63,291 nt of DNA, taken from assembly GCF_000422425.1 (NCBI RefSeq), contig NZ_KE383833.1, forward strand, positions 1-63,291. Direction: 5' to 3'. The first letter of the stretch is position 1, and every line of letters begins with the position of its first letter. Made by a program: the position numbers and the translations under genes. The notes beneath the pieces were generated by a model, which ran no database searches, was not told the DNA's origin, and saw only the letters and a list, made by a program, of their open reading frames with translations. This DNA is from Oceanospirillum beijerinckii DSM 7166 (GTDB lineage: Bacteria; Pseudomonadota; Gammaproteobacteria; Pseudomonadales; Halomonadaceae). Below, in pieces: positions 51,290 to 59,550 of this stretch.

Positions 51290-51514
51290 ATGAGAAACAG
51301 CCCTCAAGATGTGCGTTTCTCAGATCTATGCAAAATATGTGATCTCTACTTTGGCCCAGCCAGACAATCAGGCTCTAGTCATAGAGTGTATAAAACGCCT
51401 TGGCCCGGAGATCCCAGAGTAAATATCCAAAACACCAAAGGCAAAGCAAAGCCTTATCAGGTCAAACAGGTGCTACTGGCTATTAAACGTCTGGAGGAAA
51501 CAAAACATGGCTAA
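51290..51514 (+). CDS. hicA: HicA-family toxin
   Basis: A 74-residue protein with the dsRBD-like HicA core: SGSSHRVYKTPWPGDPRVNI (catalytic His in GSSHRV) and GKAKPYQVKQVLLAIKRLE. HicA toxins are mRNA interferases. Its end overlaps hicB by 8 nt, toxin first. The operator is directly upstream. Confidence 0.88.
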   Translation: MRNSPQDVRFSDLCKICDLYFGPARQSGSSHRVYKTPWPGDPRVNIQNTKGKAKPYQVKQVLLAIKRLEETKHG

Positions 51515-51833
51515 CTTTGTTGACCACTATGCCTATCGCGTGATCTGGTCGGAAGAAGATCAGGAACATGTCGGGCTATGTACAGAGTTCCCCAGCTTAA
51601 GCTGGCTGGCTGATAGCCCAGAAGCCGCTTTGTCAGGCATACGTCAATTAGTGAGTGACTGCGTTGAAGATATGCAGGCCAATAATGAAACCATTCCCGA
51701 AGTGATTTCAACAAAGCAATACAGCGGCAAGTTTATGGTACGCATTCCACCGGAAACCCACCGCCTATTGGCAATGCAAGCCGCTGAATCTGGTATTAGC
51801 TTAAATAGATTGGTTGCCAGTAAGTTACAGTAA
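51507..51833 (+). CDS. hicB: HicB-family antitoxin with ribbon-helix-helix tail
   Basis: A 108-residue antitoxin. The N-terminal partial RNase H-like domain reads YRVIWSEEDQEHVGLCTEFP and LSWLADSPEAALSGI. The C-terminal RHH DNA-binding part is GKFMVRIPPETHRLLAMQAA. It neutralises HicA and probably represses the operon. It is convergent with the FGE gene, 93 nt away. Confidence 0.9.
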   Translation: MANFVDHYAYRVIWSEEDQEHVGLCTEFPSLSWLADSPEAALSGIRQLVSDCVEDMQANNETIPEVISTKQYSGKFMVRIPPETHRLLAMQAAESGISLNRLVASKLQ

Positions 51834-51926
51834 AAATTTCCGCCGCGGCACCCGGTATCAGGCCTATTCGCTGCTCCGCTACGCTCACCGGCCCGAACCT
51901 GGGCTTGCGGCCTTTTCGGCTACGCC

Positions 51927-52841
51927 TCACTGTAGCTCAGGACCCAGGGACAAACGAAAGCCGATGCTGTCGCTACGGTGACCAGCCGGGTCGCGGTTGC
52001 GGTAGGCCGAACGGCAGCGACGGCCGTCATAAGACCAGGAGCCGCCACGGCCAACAAAGCTCTGCTGTTTTTTCTGCTCTTGTTCTTCTTCCTCACTACT
52101 CTGGTGAGCCTGCGCTACCAATTGCAGCGACTGATTTTGCAGTTCTGGTTGATCCTGACCGACCGTTACACGAATAGGCTCTATACCTAAATTTTCCTGC
52201 CAAGGATCTAAGCACCACTCCCAGACATTACCGTGCATATCGTATAACCCCCAGGGGTTTACCGGATAATCCCCCTTGGCATTGGTTTGCTTGCGCGCCT
52301 GCTCAGGATTATCCCATTCTGTTTTCTCTCCCCAATTCCACTCTCCATCATAGTTCACCCATGACAAATCCAACGAATCACCAAACCAGAAAGCGCTGTC
52401 TGTACCCGCCCGGCAAGCATACTCCCACTGGCTTTCCATGGGCAGATAAGCATTAAGCGCAGGGTGAGCTTGATTCAGTGTTGCAATAAATTTTTGAGCA
52501 TCTAGCCAACTGACCGTTTCAACCGGTAGAAGAGTGCTATTTTCTGCTTGTTGAAACTTACTGGGGTTCTCGCCCATCACGGCCTGATATAACGCTTGAG
52601 TAACCGGGAAATCCCCCAGCCAAAAGCCTTCGGTAAAAGTGACTTGATGTAGATCTTCCCAGTTAAATCGGCCTTTCTCATCTTCAGGTGAACCCATCAT
52701 AAAACGGCCCGGTGGAATCCAGCGGAAGATGTAATCAATGCCTTTGTAACACAGGCTCATCCATAACCCGTATTGATCCTGCCCCCATTCCTTAGCCCAA
52801 GGTGCGGGAAATATGGGTGGAGCTTTGGGGTGTCTAGACAT
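51927..52841 (-). CDS. FGE/C-type-lectin-like hypervariable protein (putative DGR target)
   Basis: A 304-residue FGE-fold protein: IFRWIPPGRFMMGSPEDE, VTQALYQAVMGENPSKF, ESQWEYACRAGT and NPWGLYDMHGNVWEWC. A Gln/Glu-rich linker (about 230-262) precedes the terminal GGSWSYDGRRCRSAYR ... IGFRL. The two cysteines of active FGEs in this loop are not in place, so a binding rather than oxidising role is likely. The last 32 codons before SLGPELQ form a putative DGR variable region (separate entry). An AAGGA site precedes the ATG. It follows the vWA-FGE gene by 123 nt. Confidence 0.88.
   Translation of the reverse strand: MSRHPKAPPIFPAPWAKEWGQDQYGLWMSLCYKGIDYIFRWIPPGRFMMGSPEDEKGRFNWEDLHQVTFTEGFWLGDFPVTQALYQAVMGENPSKFQQAENSTLLPVETVSWLDAQKFIATLNQAHPALNAYLPMESQWEYACRAGTDSAFWFGDSLDLSWVNYDGEWNWGEKTEWDNPEQARKQTNAKGDYPVNPWGLYDMHGNVWEWCLDPWQENLGIEPIRVTVGQDQPELQNQSLQLVAQAHQSSEEEEQEQKKQQSFVGRGGSWSYDGRRCRSAYRNRDPAGHRSDSIGFRLSLGPELQ
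51951..52046 (-). repeat. Putative DGR variable region VR1
   Basis: 96 nt from GGCGGCTCCTGG to the codon TTG, ending seven codons before the stop. It aligns without gaps to 52992-53087; the 20 differing bases fall in 14 codons, 18 at positions 1-2. A small hairpin GCTAC-8 nt-GTAGC (51919-51936) lies just downstream across the stop; DGR targets often have one, but here it is weak. Confidence 0.72.
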
Positions 52842-52964
52842 AGTAAAAGTCCTTATTCATGAAGTTTCTTAGCTCTGCTTCCCCAATTCTTCCGCTCATC
52901 TAGAAGCTATTTATACCAAGACCCCTTTGGCTCATTCTTTTCTTCAATTAGTCCTTACTGGCTT

Positions 52965-55928
52965 TCAGCTCGGCAACTCAAGACCTAGGGTCAAACGAAA
53001 GCCGATGACGCCGTGACAGAGATCTGCCGGGTCATCGAAGCGGCAGGCCGAACGGCAGTGACGGCCGTTAACAGCCCAGGAGCCGCCGCGGCTAGGATGC
53101 CATACTGCTTCATCTTTATTTAACCAGCCGAACTCCTGTTGGCCTGGATCACTTACAGCACTGCCAGCTTGATACTTTCGCAGACCATTATCCTGACACC
53201 ATTCCCAGAGATTACCGTGCATCTCATACAACCCCCAAGGATTCTCCGGTAAGCTTTTCACGGGTACTGTTTTCCCACGGTCTTGGCTTTTTTCGCCTTG
53301 GTTATAAGGACTGGAACCATCAAAGTTCACCTGTTCCGAGTGGATCTGCTCACCAAAACTAAAAGGTGTTGTGGTCCCCGCCCGACAAGCATATTCCCAT
53401 TGCGCTTCTGTCGGTAAGCTGATGTTAAGCGCGGGATATTGGGCTTTGACCTTCTGGATAAACTGCCAGCAATTGAGCCAACTGACTGAATCCACCGGGT
53501 TCTGTTCACCTTCAAAATGGCTGGGGTTATCGCCCATAACCGCTTGCCACAATGCTTGTGTGGTACAGGTATCTGCCAGCCAGTAGCCCTGAGTTAAAGT
53601 GACCTGGTGTTGGGTTTCATTATCTTCTCGTTCTGCTTCTTCAGCGGGAGAACCCATCATAAAAGTACCGGGCTCGATATAACGGAAGCGTTGGGTAATG
53701 CCAAAGAGATTAAGGTCCGCATAAAGGCCGTATTGGTCGCTGTTAAGACTAACGGTATCATTTAACAGCTGATCTGAAACCAGATCTTGTCGCCACATAG
53801 AAAAGGATTCACGTGTCAATTTTCCACTAACCTTACCGGTTACACCGAGGCCATGGGTTATGTGAGCTTCATCCTCTCGAACTGTAGAAAATGATTCTGA
53901 AGGGATTTCTTTAGAGGGTTGAAGCGGCATATCTACTTTAGAAATCTCCCCCCCATACACCATTGTAAAGTCAGCCCCATTAAGGGTTAACCCTGCTTTT
54001 AAGCTGTGATTGAGAAAACCAATTTGATTAGCCCAAGTTGGCTTTTCGATTGGCTTATAGGCCCTTTTTTCTACACCAGTGTCTAGCAAAAAGCTTTGAA
54101 GACCATAATGCCCCTCAGTAACCGGTAACTTGTAGTCCGCGAGAGAAGCAAACTCAATAAAAAGCCTTTTCTCATCGTCACTATAAAATAAACGGGATCT
54201 GTAACAGTCAAACTCATCAATCCTGACGCCCCGAGTAAGATCACTCTCAACCTCATTAACGTAATCTTTCTTCCTTAACCACACATCAGAGCCCAATAGC
54301 CAAACTTCAAGGTGGTAAGTGCCTGACTGTTCTGCCGTTAACGACTGGATAATATCAGTGTTATATTCCGGTGGAATTGACTGACCTTGCTTAATGCGCT
54401 CCTGTTCTGCTGCAACGTAGAGCACTGTAGCGTAGTCATTCTCTTTTTTGCTACTGGTAGATAACCGGGAAAGGTGGCGGTGGGCATAGCTTGTAAGATT
54501 ACTGCTTTGACCTGAGTAAGAGGTATGAGCAAGGCGCTGCATAAACCCCTTTGCCCAATCAATTTCAGCTTGCCAATCCTTGCTAGCCAAACCTGTTATA
54601 GCATCCAAGTTAATCAGCTCTTCCGCCCATACACCTTTAAATTGATTACGGTGATGTTTTGCGATGCAGTTTAGTACTGCATTGCGAAGGTTATGTTTTT
54701 CTTGGGCAAAAAGCTGCTGATAGTATTCTTTTCGATCTGCCTTGATGGCTAATGCCGTGTAGCCAAATTGAATCTCTGGATGGTTTGCGATCAGGGCTTC
54801 TATACCTGATTCAAGATCCAATAACTGGATCACTTCACGCAATAACTCAGGTTCTATATGAGTGGTAATAGACAGTGCAGACAAGACACGCTGTACATCA
54901 GACAATGTCTTGTCTTTAGCAACAAGGCTGGGATTAGCCACAAGCGGGCCACGATTACACCAGATGACCTGTTTAACGTATTGTCTAATACGCGAGCATT
55001 GGTAACTCTGGGGAATTGGGCTTAATGCAACTGGTACGATACCCTGTTGATTAAGGTGCTGTAAAAAGCTTAACCAGCTACGACGAGTACGGCTATCGGC
55101 GTCTGTTAATTGCCCCATATCACTTAGGATCAGCACTTCGGCATCACTATCCAGCCTTTGCCAACTATCCCGGTAGCTGTCGTCTTCGTGATCGTTTTTA
55201 CCTAACGGCCAAAGGTTATAACTCTCGCCTGGTAGATCTTTAAACTCCCTGATCTCCAACCCCATTGCGCCCATTACCTTGATAATACCCTGACATAACA
55301 GGGCCATATCATAGTGATAGTTGATCAAGCGGTTACTGGTATCGGCTAAAACATATAAACGACTGGCTGGTACTTGATGACGTTGATAGGGCAGAGAATA
55401 CAGTGGTTGGCATTGAGAAACCTGGCGGATAAGGCGTTTAATATCTAAGCGCTTACCCAGGTTATGAGTTAAAAAGCGGCGGATAAAATCCCGTTGACGG
55501 CTTTTATTGAATATGGGCTGAAAGGGTATCGTTTCTGCACTGCTATCAATGGCAAGATCATCATCGGTAAGGCCTTGCTCACCAATGATATGGTTGATTT
55601 TCTGCTCAGGACTTTGTTTCAGATCGCCATACACTTCTACAGAATTCAGCGCCAGAAAAGACCAGTTAAAATCTGTCTCTTCATTCTCGGTTTCTATCTG
55701 ATCAATCAGCTCTTGATCTGTGACCTCTGTATCTGGCGAGTTATCCTCGAAAGGCATTTCAGGCAATAGGGATAGTAAATCATCCAAAGTGGGGACAGCA
55801 TCTATACGCTCAAATCCCAGTGTCTTAAGCACATTATCTGGCAGATCATTCTGCCCTGAACGCGCTAAAGCACGTACCAGTTCTCCGCGATAACACTGAG
55901 CACCCTTCGCCTGATATTTGGTCGCCAT
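52965..55928 (-). CDS. vWA-like protein with C-terminal FGE hypervariable domain
   Basis: A 987-residue cytosolic protein. Residues 1-180 are acidic and mostly helical. Residues 190-325 look like a vWA domain (RLYVLADTSNRLINYHYD with a MIDAS-like D-T-S, and EVLILSDMGQLTDADSRTRR). The middle (330-735) is unassigned. Residues 740-987 are an FGE/CLec domain (FRYIEPGTFMMGSP, TEAQWEYACRAGT, NPWGLYEMHGNLWEWC) ending in the variable GGSWAVNGRHCRSACR ... GVIGFRL. It starts 1 nt into the MoxR stop (TAATG), so it is coupled to its ATPase. Confidence 0.82.
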   Translation of the reverse strand: MATKYQAKGAQCYRGELVRALARSGQNDLPDNVLKTLGFERIDAVPTLDDLLSLLPEMPFEDNSPDTEVTDQELIDQIETENEETDFNWSFLALNSVEVYGDLKQSPEQKINHIIGEQGLTDDDLAIDSSAETIPFQPIFNKSRQRDFIRRFLTHNLGKRLDIKRLIRQVSQCQPLYSLPYQRHQVPASRLYVLADTSNRLINYHYDMALLCQGIIKVMGAMGLEIREFKDLPGESYNLWPLGKNDHEDDSYRDSWQRLDSDAEVLILSDMGQLTDADSRTRRSWLSFLQHLNQQGIVPVALSPIPQSYQCSRIRQYVKQVIWCNRGPLVANPSLVAKDKTLSDVQRVLSALSITTHIEPELLREVIQLLDLESGIEALIANHPEIQFGYTALAIKADRKEYYQQLFAQEKHNLRNAVLNCIAKHHRNQFKGVWAEELINLDAITGLASKDWQAEIDWAKGFMQRLAHTSYSGQSSNLTSYAHRHLSRLSTSSKKENDYATVLYVAAEQERIKQGQSIPPEYNTDIIQSLTAEQSGTYHLEVWLLGSDVWLRKKDYVNEVESDLTRGVRIDEFDCYRSRLFYSDDEKRLFIEFASLADYKLPVTEGHYGLQSFLLDTGVEKRAYKPIEKPTWANQIGFLNHSLKAGLTLNGADFTMVYGGEISKVDMPLQPSKEIPSESFSTVREDEAHITHGLGVTGKVSGKLTRESFSMWRQDLVSDQLLNDTVSLNSDQYGLYADLNLFGITQRFRYIEPGTFMMGSPAEEAEREDNETQHQVTLTQGYWLADTCTTQALWQAVMGDNPSHFEGEQNPVDSVSWLNCWQFIQKVKAQYPALNISLPTEAQWEYACRAGTTTPFSFGEQIHSEQVNFDGSSPYNQGEKSQDRGKTVPVKSLPENPWGLYEMHGNLWEWCQDNGLRKYQAGSAVSDPGQQEFGWLNKDEAVWHPSRGGSWAVNGRHCRSACRFDDPADLCHGVIGFRLTLGLELPS
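52992..53087 (-). repeat. Putative DGR variable region VR2
   Basis: 96 nt collinear with VR1, nine codons before the stop. Codon 7 is AAC here and GAC in VR1; codon 17 is AAC in VR1 and TTC here: the unmutated AAC form survives in one copy each time. Invariant codons are identical even at silent positions. Confidence 0.72.
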
Positions 55929-56971
55929 TAGTTTGCCTTATTGAGCACAAATTTCTGGATATTTTGTAGCAGACTCAACTGCTCATTGGAGCGTTCGGGC
56001 TCACCTTTTATATCAACCATTTCATCCAATGCGGATAACAGATCAAGATACTCGGCCAAACCCGGCTTCACAGCCAAAGCCTTTTGTCGGTCTTCAATCA
56101 GCTGCTGGGCGGCTTTGCTTAATACCTCATCGCTACAAGCATCTTGATCAAAGTGAACACGAGCCCGCTGGGCTAACCACTCTTCGGTGTTGTCTTTATC
56201 AATTTTCAGATGCAGAACCAAACAGCGGCGCAGGAAGGCTGGAGGCAATTCACGCTCATCATTGGTGGTGATAATGACTAAAGGCTGCTTTGCCTTATCT
56301 TCGGTATGAATGGTGTCACCGGTTTGAGGTACGGTAAAACCGCCATTACCCAATACTTCCAGCAAGCTATTCGGTAGAGAGGGGTCAGCTTTATCAATCT
56401 CGTCGATCAGTAGTACCACGCCTTGATCGGCTTTCTCTTCATCTGCCATTTTGGGCTTAAAGACCTTGTGGCGGCATTTTTCGTATTGCACTGAAGCGTG
56501 TTGCCAGTTAAACGCCCACCACAATACACCGGGGTTGAGATAGTTATTGGGGTTTAGGGCATCGCCTCTTTTTACGATAGTCTTATCAGCTTTCGGGTTT
56601 GTACTTTCCTTTTGTAGATCTGAGCTTTCAGACTGAGTTTCGTCTTCGTTAACTGCACAGAAATCACTGCCAAGCTGGGCGTCATTTAAACGAGAAACCA
56701 GATCCATACGCCACAATAGATCCTGCCCTTCGGTATTTACGTTAATCACTTCGGCAATAAAAGCTCTACCCAACTCGGCAGCAGCTGCACGGGCTAGATA
56801 ACTTTTCCCCAAACCCGGTTCGCCTTTTACTAACAATGGGCGGCCTGTAGCTAAAGCCATTTCTAAGGCATAGGCGGAGTCTTTGCATAACAGGTATGAG
56901 CTGTTAGGCCAGGAGCCGCAGGTGGGGATTTCTATCTCTTGACCGGGTTTAAACTCTTTGAGAATTTTCAC
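55928..56971 (-). CDS. MoxR-family AAA+ ATPase
   Basis: A 347-residue AAA+ chaperone. Walker A is VKGEPGLGKSYLARA (Lys56), Walker B VVLLIDEIDKADPSLPNSL (186-191 core), sensor 1 IITTNDERELPPAF, and an Arg-finger region FLRRC. MoxR ATPases work with vWA proteins, here the next gene. A charged insert (ETQSESSDLQKES) sits between Walker A and B. ATGA overlap with the protease gene upstream and TAATG with the vWA gene downstream make a tight translational unit. Confidence 0.93.
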   Translation of the reverse strand: MKILKEFKPGQEIEIPTCGSWPNSSYLLCKDSAYALEMALATGRPLLVKGEPGLGKSYLARAAAAELGRAFIAEVINVNTEGQDLLWRMDLVSRLNDAQLGSDFCAVNEDETQSESSDLQKESTNPKADKTIVKRGDALNPNNYLNPGVLWWAFNWQHASVQYEKCRHKVFKPKMADEEKADQGVVLLIDEIDKADPSLPNSLLEVLGNGGFTVPQTGDTIHTEDKAKQPLVIITTNDERELPPAFLRRCLVLHLKIDKDNTEEWLAQRARVHFDQDACSDEVLSKAAQQLIEDRQKALAVKPGLAEYLDLLSALDEMVDIKGEPERSNEQLSLLQNIQKFVLNKAN

Positions 56972-58440
56972 TGTTCAGCTCCATTTAACAATTCATGAAA
57001 GTCCATAATGATATTGATCAACTCCATTTCATCCTCTGTCGGACTTAAGTCATACTCACCAATAGGTACATCAGGAAGCTTCTCTTCCAGCTTTAGCTTC
57101 ACACTATCATCGATGAGGGATTTTCTATCACTAAGATTTCGAGCTAGGTAATAAAAGCCGGTCTTTCTCTTATGCTTACGTTTAATCTGCTTATTAAGCA
57201 TATCAGCAATTTTTTTGTTACTACTATCAGCTAAACTTAATCTACTGCCATTTACCTTTTCATGTAACAGGCTGGTTGCCTTATCAATTGTTGCAACGAT
57301 TTCATTAGCAATATCATCATCTATAAACCCGGCCTCTACATTAATTTCTCTGCAGGTTATCGCTCTAACACCTTTCACTTTTTCCAGGTTATTTTCATTT
57401 TCTCTCACCTGTAACTCAGGCAAGAGATCATAAAGATGAGATAATTTAATTTCCAATATAGCCAAGGTAGAGCAAGCTTCACTTTCATGTTTGCACTCTA
57501 CTAACCCAGCGTGATACAGGTATGCAACTGAGCACTTTAATATTTCGCTAACAAAGCTTATGACACCCGAATAGCGACTCTTTATCAGCTTACTAGAAAA
57601 ATCCAAAAACTGATCCAATGCACTAGCCCAGTTATGATTTATCTCATTACAATAATGTTCTCCTGAGGCTCCATTTCGACCAACAAAAAACTGATCAAAC
57701 ACCTCCAAAAACACCGTATCATTATGCTTATCAAAGACTTCTATTATTTGATTGTAGTAACGTTTGCCATCTTCACAACTATCAGATGATATCAGCAGTT
57801 CAAACTCAGGTATTTTTTCTATTAGATAGGGAATGGAAACAGAATAAAGCGTGCTATCACTAACCGCTAGCTCTTTTCCATTTTCATCTTTATAGGTAGA
57901 AGGCGTTGAAATAATAATAGCAGCCAGCTTTTGTGTCTCTCTATCAATTATTGGAGCACCTGACATTCCCCGCCAGAATTCACACCTAGATTTTCCAACT
58001 ACTTCAAGCTTTTGTATATAGTCATGTTCGTCATGATCAAAAAATTTACCTTTTTCTGTTTCCCCCAGCCTTTGTCCTGCATCACTTTTTCTAGATGACC
58101 GGGGAAAGCCATAACTATCCCATGGTTTATCAGCAATTGGGTATCGCCTTAAAACTTTTGCATAGCCCGGCGTATAATCAGGAAACTTACTACATAAAAT
58201 GATAGCTATATCTTTAGCAACATCAGAAAATATTTTTTCTAATATTTCACCTTTACATATAGCTACACTTTCATCATTATTTTTCCAAATAACCTTGGAG
58301 CCTAATAAAATAGCATTATCTTCTGGTAATACATGGTTTGCGGTAATAAGTAACCTATCCCCAATAGGGTATGCCGTACCCACCCTATATTTTCCATTCT
58401 CTTTTTTTATTTTTAGCTTTGCGACCCAGCGATTATCCAT
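56968..58440 (-). CDS. Cytosolic trypsin-like serine protease with helical C-terminal region
   Basis: A 490-residue protein with no signal peptide. The chymotrypsin-fold domain (1-205) has the triad His36 (LLITANHVLPE), Asp78 (VAKDIAIIL) and Ser160 (FWRGMSGAPIID). Residues 230-490 are helical, Lys/Glu-rich and unassigned. The gene is visibly more AT-rich than its neighbours, suggesting transfer. In published MoxR-vWA conflict systems a trypsin with such an extension is thought to trigger effectors by cleavage. Starts after AGGT. Confidence 0.87.
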   Translation of the reverse strand: MDNRWVAKLKIKKENGKYRVGTAYPIGDRLLITANHVLPEDNAILLGSKVIWKNNDESVAICKGEILEKIFSDVAKDIAIILCSKFPDYTPGYAKVLRRYPIADKPWDSYGFPRSSRKSDAGQRLGETEKGKFFDHDEHDYIQKLEVVGKSRCEFWRGMSGAPIIDRETQKLAAIIISTPSTYKDENGKELAVSDSTLYSVSIPYLIEKIPEFELLISSDSCEDGKRYYNQIIEVFDKHNDTVFLEVFDQFFVGRNGASGEHYCNEINHNWASALDQFLDFSSKLIKSRYSGVISFVSEILKCSVAYLYHAGLVECKHESEACSTLAILEIKLSHLYDLLPELQVRENENNLEKVKGVRAITCREINVEAGFIDDDIANEIVATIDKATSLLHEKVNGSRLSLADSSNKKIADMLNKQIKRKHKRKTGFYYLARNLSDRKSLIDDSVKLKLEEKLPDVPIGEYDLSPTEDEMELINIIMDFHELLNGAEQ

Positions 58441-58452
58441 ATTTATACCTGA

Positions 58453-58803
58453 TTAGTCTTCTTCATCCCCTGCTTCATCATCGTTCAGGTCCATAGGTTT
58501 ACTTACCCCTGTTTCGGGATCTTTCTGCATTGCTTTTAAAGTCATTTTTATTTTCTGGGTACAAATAGCATTATGTTTGCCATTTGCTTCTATACCTGTA
58601 TCCCAAAAAGGTACTTTCAAAGAGAACTTACCACCTTTTTCTCTAGTTACGGCTGAAGTCAGCTCTATTTCAATATCACCAACTTGCAGATCTAGATTAG
58701 GGTCTTTCCCATCCTGGGCCTTTAGTAACTCTTTACGAATACCAGCAACAACATCTGCTAATGGTACAAAAAGGTCCTGATCTTTTTCCTGATTGCCTGT
58801 CAT
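58453..58803 (-). CDS. Trypsin-co-occurring domain (Trypco2) protein
   Basis: A 116-residue protein: PLADVVAGIRKELLKAQDGK, then LQVGDIEIELTSAVTREKGG and KFSLKVPFWDTGIEA, followed by a strand and an acidic tail. This is the pattern of the Trypco2 family, found beside trypsin-like proteases in conflict systems. It is the promoter-proximal gene, 12 nt before the protease. Confidence 0.83.
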   Translation of the reverse strand: MTGNQEKDQDLFVPLADVVAGIRKELLKAQDGKDPNLDLQVGDIEIELTSAVTREKGGKFSLKVPFWDTGIEANGKHNAICTQKIKMTLKAMQKDPETGVSKPMDLNDDEAGDEED

Positions 58804-58929: not shown

Positions 58930-59550
58930 TTGTTTTTTTATATAAAAAACAATGAAAAACAACATCAGAAAACGCATGATATTGCACAGCAGACAACACT
59001 ACCAACCCGCCTCCCTATAAGCTCACGTCCACTGGATTTTGATCTGTTTCAGCAGCCAGAACAGCAAAATCTGGCACTCTGGTGTTTTGAAATGCGCGAT
59101 AGTGTCTTACCTGAGGTAAAATTAGGTGATGAGCTGCAGCTCAATATTATCGAACTGCGTAAAGCCGACAGACTTCAGGTATGCTCTGAGTCTTTACAGG
59201 CGCTGATCACTTTCTTTGAACACTGGCAGGAGGAGCACATAATGGCAAACATTGACTATGAACCGGTTCAACAAGCCATGGAAAAGCTTAAGCAACTCAG
59301 TGCCGATGAAGAAACCCGCCATATGGCGTTTGTGCGTGAGAAAGCACTTAGAGATGAGGCGAGTTTGATTAATGATGCAGTTAAACGTGGCGAAGCTAAT
59401 ATCCTAACTCTGCTACTTAATCAACGCTTTGGTGAACTTCCAAGCTGGGTTAGTCAAAAGCTCTCAAATGCCACTTCTCAACAAATCGAAAGATGGTCTG
59501 GCAATGTACTTAATGCAGACTCGCTGGAACAGGTTTTCGAAAGCCACTAA
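58930..59550 (+). pseudogene. 5'-truncated Rpn/PD-(D/E)XK transposase-type protein (DUF4351 end)
   Basis: About 206 codons without an ATG or GTG near the open frame's beginning (only TTG at 58930). From about residue 33 it reads like the later part of an Rpn-family protein (MRDSVLPEVKLGDELQLNII, FVREKALRDEASLINDAVK), and it ends with a DUF4351-like domain (NILTLLLNQRFGELPSWVSQ, LNADSLEQVF). The N-terminal catalytic nuclease motifs are missing. A GGAGGAG site before an internal ATG at 59242 could still express the last 102 residues. Confidence 0.7.

Follow-up and report, generated by a model that had tools for sequence, protein, structure and literature searches.

Most of the closest described systems come from three papers. 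In the BPP-1 diversity-generating retroelement (DGR), copies of a shared template, made with errors at adenine (A), are pasted into each variable repeat, VR (Guo et al. 2011, PMC3240598). DGR loci of clade 5A have been linked to MoxR-like ternary conflict systems, and their targets carry an extension without predicted domains; invader sensing by such targets was proposed, with a call for tests (Dore et al. 2024, PMC10907252). Among the VMAP ternary conflict systems, ∼80% of those in cyanobacteria and gammaproteobacteria were reported to be DGR-associated (Kaur et al. 2020, PMC7159879). The locus described here lies in a stretch of 63,291 nucleotides from Oceanospirillum beijerinckii DSM 7166 (contig NZ_KE383833.1, positions 1 to 63,291), the whole of which is referred to as the window, and is an operon ending in two targets with a VR at each C-terminus. 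It matches the clade 5A operon type of Dore et al. but, unlike that type, no reverse transcriptase (RT) or template was found. A MoxR-type ATPase, a trypsin-like peptidase with Trypco2 and an FGE-fold domain are common to the operon and the VMAP systems of Kaur et al., and the locus would fall among VMAP-ternary systems without a linked DGR, yet its VRs bear the DGR signature. The two genes are likely to be orphaned DGR targets, fairly recently rewritten, for which the machinery has been lost or acts from outside the assembly. This kind is known, as degenerate and remote DGR targets, with RT and/or template missing at the locus, are already in print for Thiohalocapsa PB-PSB1 (Dore et al. 2024, PMC10907252). 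Some of the parts missing there were located at other sites of the genome or in sister variants, whereas none was found for the window locus. Literature searches, none of them made by organism, returned no published title on this VR pair.

51927..52841, minus strand: target of 304 aa with the C-lectin (CLec) domain only (FGE-sulfatase fold), an open reading frame (ORF) with a Pfam FGE-sulfatase match of 137.6 bits
51951..52046, minus strand: VR1, the variable repeat at the C-terminus of the CLec-only target, defined by an ungapped match to VR2 with differences at codon positions 1 and 2 and at homologous template-A positions
52965..55928, minus strand: long target of 987 aa, an ORF with an N-terminal extension and a C-terminal FGE/CLec domain (Pfam FGE-sulfatase, 107.8 bits, residues 751-979)
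52992..53087, minus strand: VR2, the variable repeat at the C-terminus of the long target, defined by an ungapped match to VR1 with the same difference pattern

Both VRs are in frame on the minus strand and can be aligned without gaps. Over the 32 codons from GGC to TTG they differ at 20 bases spread over 14 codons, with 8 differences at codon position 1, 10 at position 2 and 2 at position 3. AAC is present in one copy at two of the differing codons, and there are five cases of two changes within one codon. In the NPWGLY-to-WEWC block the counts for the three positions are 1, 0 and 7 (Fisher 2e-4 for 18:2 against 1:7), and in the FGE domain, aligned over 221 codons upstream of the VR, they are 83, 78 and 135 (binomial 8e-4 for 18:2 against 161:135). 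These counts agree with an earlier sequence-only reading of the window, which had given the same coordinates, the 20 differences in 14 of 32 codons, their 18:2 split, the 7 third-position and 1 first-position differences of the block and the two codons with AAC in one copy. Silent differences at identical residues amount to 2/20 in the VR (34 codons) versus 50/106 upstream (Fisher 0.002), and since silent sites have hardly diverged in the constant codons of the pair, rewriting would have been fairly recent. Where VR1 and VR2 are identical, adenine is scarce, with A at 3/75 positions versus 104/372 identical positions upstream (Fisher 6e-7); T is not depleted (16/75 versus 89/372).

Homologous templates were obtained from relatives. 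A scan of named genomes with an FGE query gave at least 587 stretches, and the best 80 of at least 580 that were confirmed were used (L-numbered loci). An RT was found in 10 of these 80 with the BPP-1 RT as query, and an A-specific repeat scan gave template/VR pairs in 9 of the 10 RT-bearing relatives. The scan also gave pairs in L054, L073, L088, L096, L099 and L107; real and chance pairs among these are unsorted, and only L107 was used. AAC accounts for many of the variable codons in the 9 homologous templates. Eight of them were compared with the window (L056, in which the motif is shifted, was left out) in a frame of 32 codons counted from the R of RGG, over which VR1 and VR2 show 21 differences, 3 at the third position. 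A is found in at least half of the 8 templates at 26 of the 96 aligned positions, and these positions take 17 of the 21 differences, leaving 4 elsewhere (Fisher 3.8e-9). Of the 4, three are third bases, in codon 1 (at the boundary) and in codons 19 and 22, and one is a first base, in codon 25. Codon 18 of the GGC to TTG frame (CGC/GAT) had been named in the sequence-only reading as the sole poor fit; one third-position difference there is indeed unexplained by the homologous templates, but GCT/GCA is a second such case.

The best match to the targets among solved structures, by sequence, is TvpA of Treponema denticola (PDB 2y3c, E 2e-39), and its C-terminal RGGSW...GFRLA spans the VR. The operon setting differs, TvpA to our knowledge not being in a MoxR ternary operon. 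In BPP-1 the VR is at the C-terminus of a CLec-fold protein. The earlier view of VR1 and VR2 as DGR repeats at FGE/CLec C-termini is thus strongly supported by the homologous templates, the adenine depletion, the recipient-type 3′ bases described below and the TvpA match, but the DGR itself was not found. From these comparisons VR1 and VR2 are very probably true variable repeats of a DGR.

Without any retroelement, the pair could be envisaged as ordinary paralogues shaped by gene conversion and by diversifying selection acting on a binding surface, as FGE/CLec paralogues are common and binding surfaces can evolve fast. However, gene conversion would wipe out the variable codons, and selection would not spare silent sites, hit five codons twice, deplete A alone or match the template-A positions of other species. 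In six relatives without an RT (L032, L035, L036, L037, L053 and L071), every compared pair of VRs has between 12 and 22 differences at the third position over 32 codons. This account is rejected on the depletion of A alone and on the control comparisons, and is extremely improbable.

The assembly of the genome is 99.05% complete in 99 contigs. The sequence-only reading had proposed looking in it for a template repeat and a DGR-type RT, and neither turned up. Two degenerate patterns with up to 3 mismatches matched only the two VRs in the whole genome, and blastn at E≤10 added only 14-20-base matches beyond the VRs. Within the window no template was detected by pattern over its whole length or by the A-specific repeat scan over 25001-63291. 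The RT family search (PF00078) of the genome gave 7 matches (L001-L007), every one a non-DGR class or a fragment: a group II intron RT, an RT-Cas1 fusion, two retron-like RTs, Drt3a, Drt3b and one fragment that is 94% identical to the group II intron RT over 81 residues. With the DGR-RT profile, the best match in this genome was the group II intron RT at 113.8 bits; family RTs elsewhere reach 311.7, and 7 of the 8 family stretches with high DGR-profile scores that were examined carry a template/VR pair. Outside the genome, the sole 30-base plasmid match to the VR of the window falls in an unrelated reading frame and was rejected as a template. Phage sequences gave two 21-base matches only (E 0.6), and exact patterns gave no match in viral contigs. 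What is present of a complete DGR is a VR with changes at homologous template-A positions, while its two defining parts, template and DGR-type RT, were searched for without success. For this reason the pair, which corresponds to the target half of a DGR, is not classed as a complete one and is treated as an orphan.

A homologous target pair was found in one of 5 other genomes of the genus compared, G005 (∼99% complete). It consists of ORFs of 1085 aa and 291 aa adjoining a MoxR-type gene, preceded by a protein that is TIR-like by eye in place of the trypsin-like one. Between the two G005 VRs there are 12 differences at codon position 1, 14 at position 2 and 7 at position 3; 20 of these 33 are on the same template-A positions and 13 are off them (Fisher 2e-7). 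Identical VR positions hold A at 1/63 versus 100/368 upstream, and silent differences at identical residues are 2/15. The G005 pair fits the DGR signature less cleanly than that of the window, and its recency is less clear. Comparison of VRs from one genome with those from the other gives differences at every codon position (e.g. 14, 10 and 14), an example of ordinary divergence, and the two pairs were thus probably written from different templates. A pattern search for a template in G005 matched only its own two VRs. A pattern from a G005 VR also matched 55 viral stretches, with an RGG or GGxW context in 0/55, and these matches were set aside as chance.

No DGR RT was found in G005. Its only RT match, of 372 aa, was considered as one and rejected as UG4 type (PADLOC 340.8 bits; L018, G005:C17:91330-91842). 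Since this RT shares a contig with the VR pair of G005, and several non-DGR RTs are present in the genome of the window, the VRs might be rewritten by another host RT (retron-like, Drt3, RT-Cas1 or group II intron, or UG4 in G005). The UG4 RT is, however, ∼31 kb away from the pair, no template was seen in G005 contig C17:50000-100000, no RT in the genome of the window is classed as UG4, and neither genome yielded a template, all of which makes this explanation very unlikely. The G005 contig with the UG4 RT also has genes that by eye resemble parts of an extracellular contractile injection system.

The sequences 3′ of the repeats were compared with those of the RT-bearing relatives. The elements found in the window, including a core like that for initiation of mutagenic homing (IMH), are:

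51873..51879, minus strand: GCGGAGC element downstream of VR1, from motif comparison with RT-bearing relatives
51941..51945, minus strand: IMH-like core GGGTC following VR1, its G at the base separating VRs of relatives from their templates being of recipient type
52982..52986, minus strand: IMH-like core after VR2, AGGTC, recipient type

The core after the repeat reads AGGTC or AGTTC for 16 of 19 VRs of the RT-bearing relatives, as against AGCTC for 8 of their 9 templates; the recipient-type G is found after both VRs of the window and both of G005. The recipient-type core is also kept in RT-less relatives with many silent differences, e.g. L032, and is thus no sign of recency. GCGGAGC occurs within 170 nt after 15/19 VRs versus 0/9 templates in the RT-bearing relatives (Fisher 1e-4; one miss is a contig end), and after VR1 and both G005 VRs. 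Its chance occurrence in shuffled flanks of single VRs is ∼0.006 to 0.1, and 0.027 for the VR1 flank. The long target of G005 runs ∼80 residues beyond GPEL (L017:9423-9692), so that GCGGAGC is coding there. A putative recipient-specific signal after the VR would be shared with BPP-1, for which a hairpin has been proven (Guo et al. 2011, PMC3240598), whereas in the window only a shared sequence element is seen. A triloop hairpin around GCGGAGC was tried, but its stems are mostly within the shuffle range, and the motif was retained as a sequence, not a structure. The 117 bp downstream of VR1, tried as a repeat, are single copy at E≤0.01.

The place where the machinery may once have been is suggested by gene order:

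52842..52964, no strand: gap of 123 bp between the two targets, at the place that holds the RT in 9 of 10 RT-bearing relatives

The RT is located between two FGE targets in 9 of the 10 RT-bearing relatives; the exception, L048, has a single target, located before the RT, and no further FGE match follows the RT in the stretch examined. The corresponding gap in G005 is 43 bp, and the 123 bp gap is too short for an accessory gene (Avd or similar). The simplest reading is that an RT-template module has been lost from between the targets.

To see the pair among others of its type, the genomes of 16 relatives with no RT in the stretch were sampled, together with 2 controls that have their own RTs in the profile, using a threshold of ∼290 bits, set by us, for calling a DGR RT. 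A DGR-like RT was found elsewhere in the genome in 8 of the 16; many of these genomes are metagenome bins, in which absence is weak evidence. VR pairs with at most 1 third-position difference were seen in L031, L033, L045, L050, L051 and L107 (for L050 and for L051 this holds for a single pair out of three). Intermediate numbers were found in L042 (8), L058 (6-8), L039 (5-9), L069 (3-7) and L098 (3), and the six relatives with 12-22 differences lie beyond them. With 3 third-position differences in 32 codons the pair of the window is near the recently written end, yet is without an RT. L107 has a template-like repeat beside its targets. The best template leaves 14-15 non-A mismatches in L031 and L033, and 4-11 in L042 and L058. 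L045, a proteobacterial metagenome-assembled genome with VRs at L045:5473 and L045:6553, matches a template beside an RT on another contig of the same genome (L151) with 15 and 11 mismatches, all at A, which indicates either trans action or a split locus.

The L045 match, with no non-A mismatch in either VR of a stretch without its own RT, speaks for the view that an RT and template absent from the assembly still rewrite the VR pair of the window in trans; they might be carried by a plasmid, a prophage or other members of the population, or fall into an assembly gap. Such rewriting would also account for constant codons nearly free of silent differences in the window and in G005 even though neither genome has a DGR RT, and both trans action and sister variants with and without an RT were reported by Dore et al. 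2024 (PMC10907252). Nonetheless, no template or DGR RT was found in two ∼99% complete genomes, and the plasmid, phage and viral-contig searches with the VR of the window gave no credible template. Continued rewriting of this kind is conceivable but rather unlikely. More generally, that two species of the genus each have a pair of low silent divergence, different templates and no DGR machinery found might suggest that the receptors are serviced by a DGR outside the host chromosome, a mobile or population-shared RT and template rewriting RT-less recipients in trans while the host keeps recipients with 3′ acceptor marks. This we hold to be distinctly unlikely.

Several observations weigh against orphaned and fairly recently rewritten targets. 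The A-specificity of the pair is drawn from homologous templates and not a cognate one, 4 of the 21 differences are off the homologous template-A positions, and VR1 and VR2 agree at 9 of these 26. With 99 contigs, a small element could be missing from the assembly. No remnant of an RT or template was identified in the 123 bp gap, so a deletion is presumed rather than seen. The third-position differences of the RT-less relatives form a continuous range, on which 'recent' is a judgement. The core after VR1 is GGGTC, where relatives have AGGTC or AGTTC. Finally, GCGGAGC was not found after VR2, which speaks against rewriting in trans as well but fits the loss of the RT-template module from between the targets.

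On the favoured reading, a shared template RNA would have been copied with errors at adenines by the RT of one DGR, and the copies would have replaced the C-termini of two CLec-fold proteins. These C-termini would most likely serve a MoxR-type ternary conflict (anti-invader) system as interchangeable recognition surfaces. With the RT and template, which relatives have between the two targets, gone from this genome, the receptors would probably be frozen in their last-drawn specificities, and the 3′ sequences remaining at VR1 may allow renewed rewriting by a DGR. Receptors diversified by a DGR, and probably defensive, can then be recognised from sequence without their retroelement, and surveys taking the RT as their starting point would overlook such loci. 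As the relatives grade from RT-bearing loci, via pairs like this one that look recently orphaned, to pairs with many silent differences, the rate of mutator loss and restart by outside elements become testable questions.

The remaining genes of the operon, which is ordered Trypco2, trypsin-like, MoxR, long target and CLec-only target, are:

55928..56971, minus strand: MoxR-like AAA ATPase (Pfam AAA_5, 7e-14; the name MoxR is from the operon type, not Pfam)
56968..58440, minus strand: trypsin-like peptidase protein, probable effector of the ternary system (Pfam Trypsin_2, 1.3e-5, 26.4 bits, just missing the curated cut-off of 27.6)
58453..58803, minus strand: Trypco2 (Trypsin-co-occurring domain 2) protein (Pfam Trypco2, 1.6e-15)

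The N-terminal extension of the long target is vWA-like by eye with no Pfam vWA match, and of 275 family genomes, only 2 were found to have a relative of this N-terminus, namely that of the window and G005. PADLOC gave no match for the two targets and weak matches only for the ATPase and trypsin proteins. By analogy with the described systems this is a probable bacterial defence operon, a role in defence being presumed from its composition, and sensing of invaders by its targets would be the proposal for clade 5A targets carried over to the window. Just downstream of the CLec-only target is a HicB-family gene (Pfam HicB) at 51290-51833, with a frame before it that is HicA-like by eye. On the other flank of the operon, the gene at 58930-59550 has a weak match to a PD-(D/E)XK transposase family (28.1 bits, cut-off 27.4).

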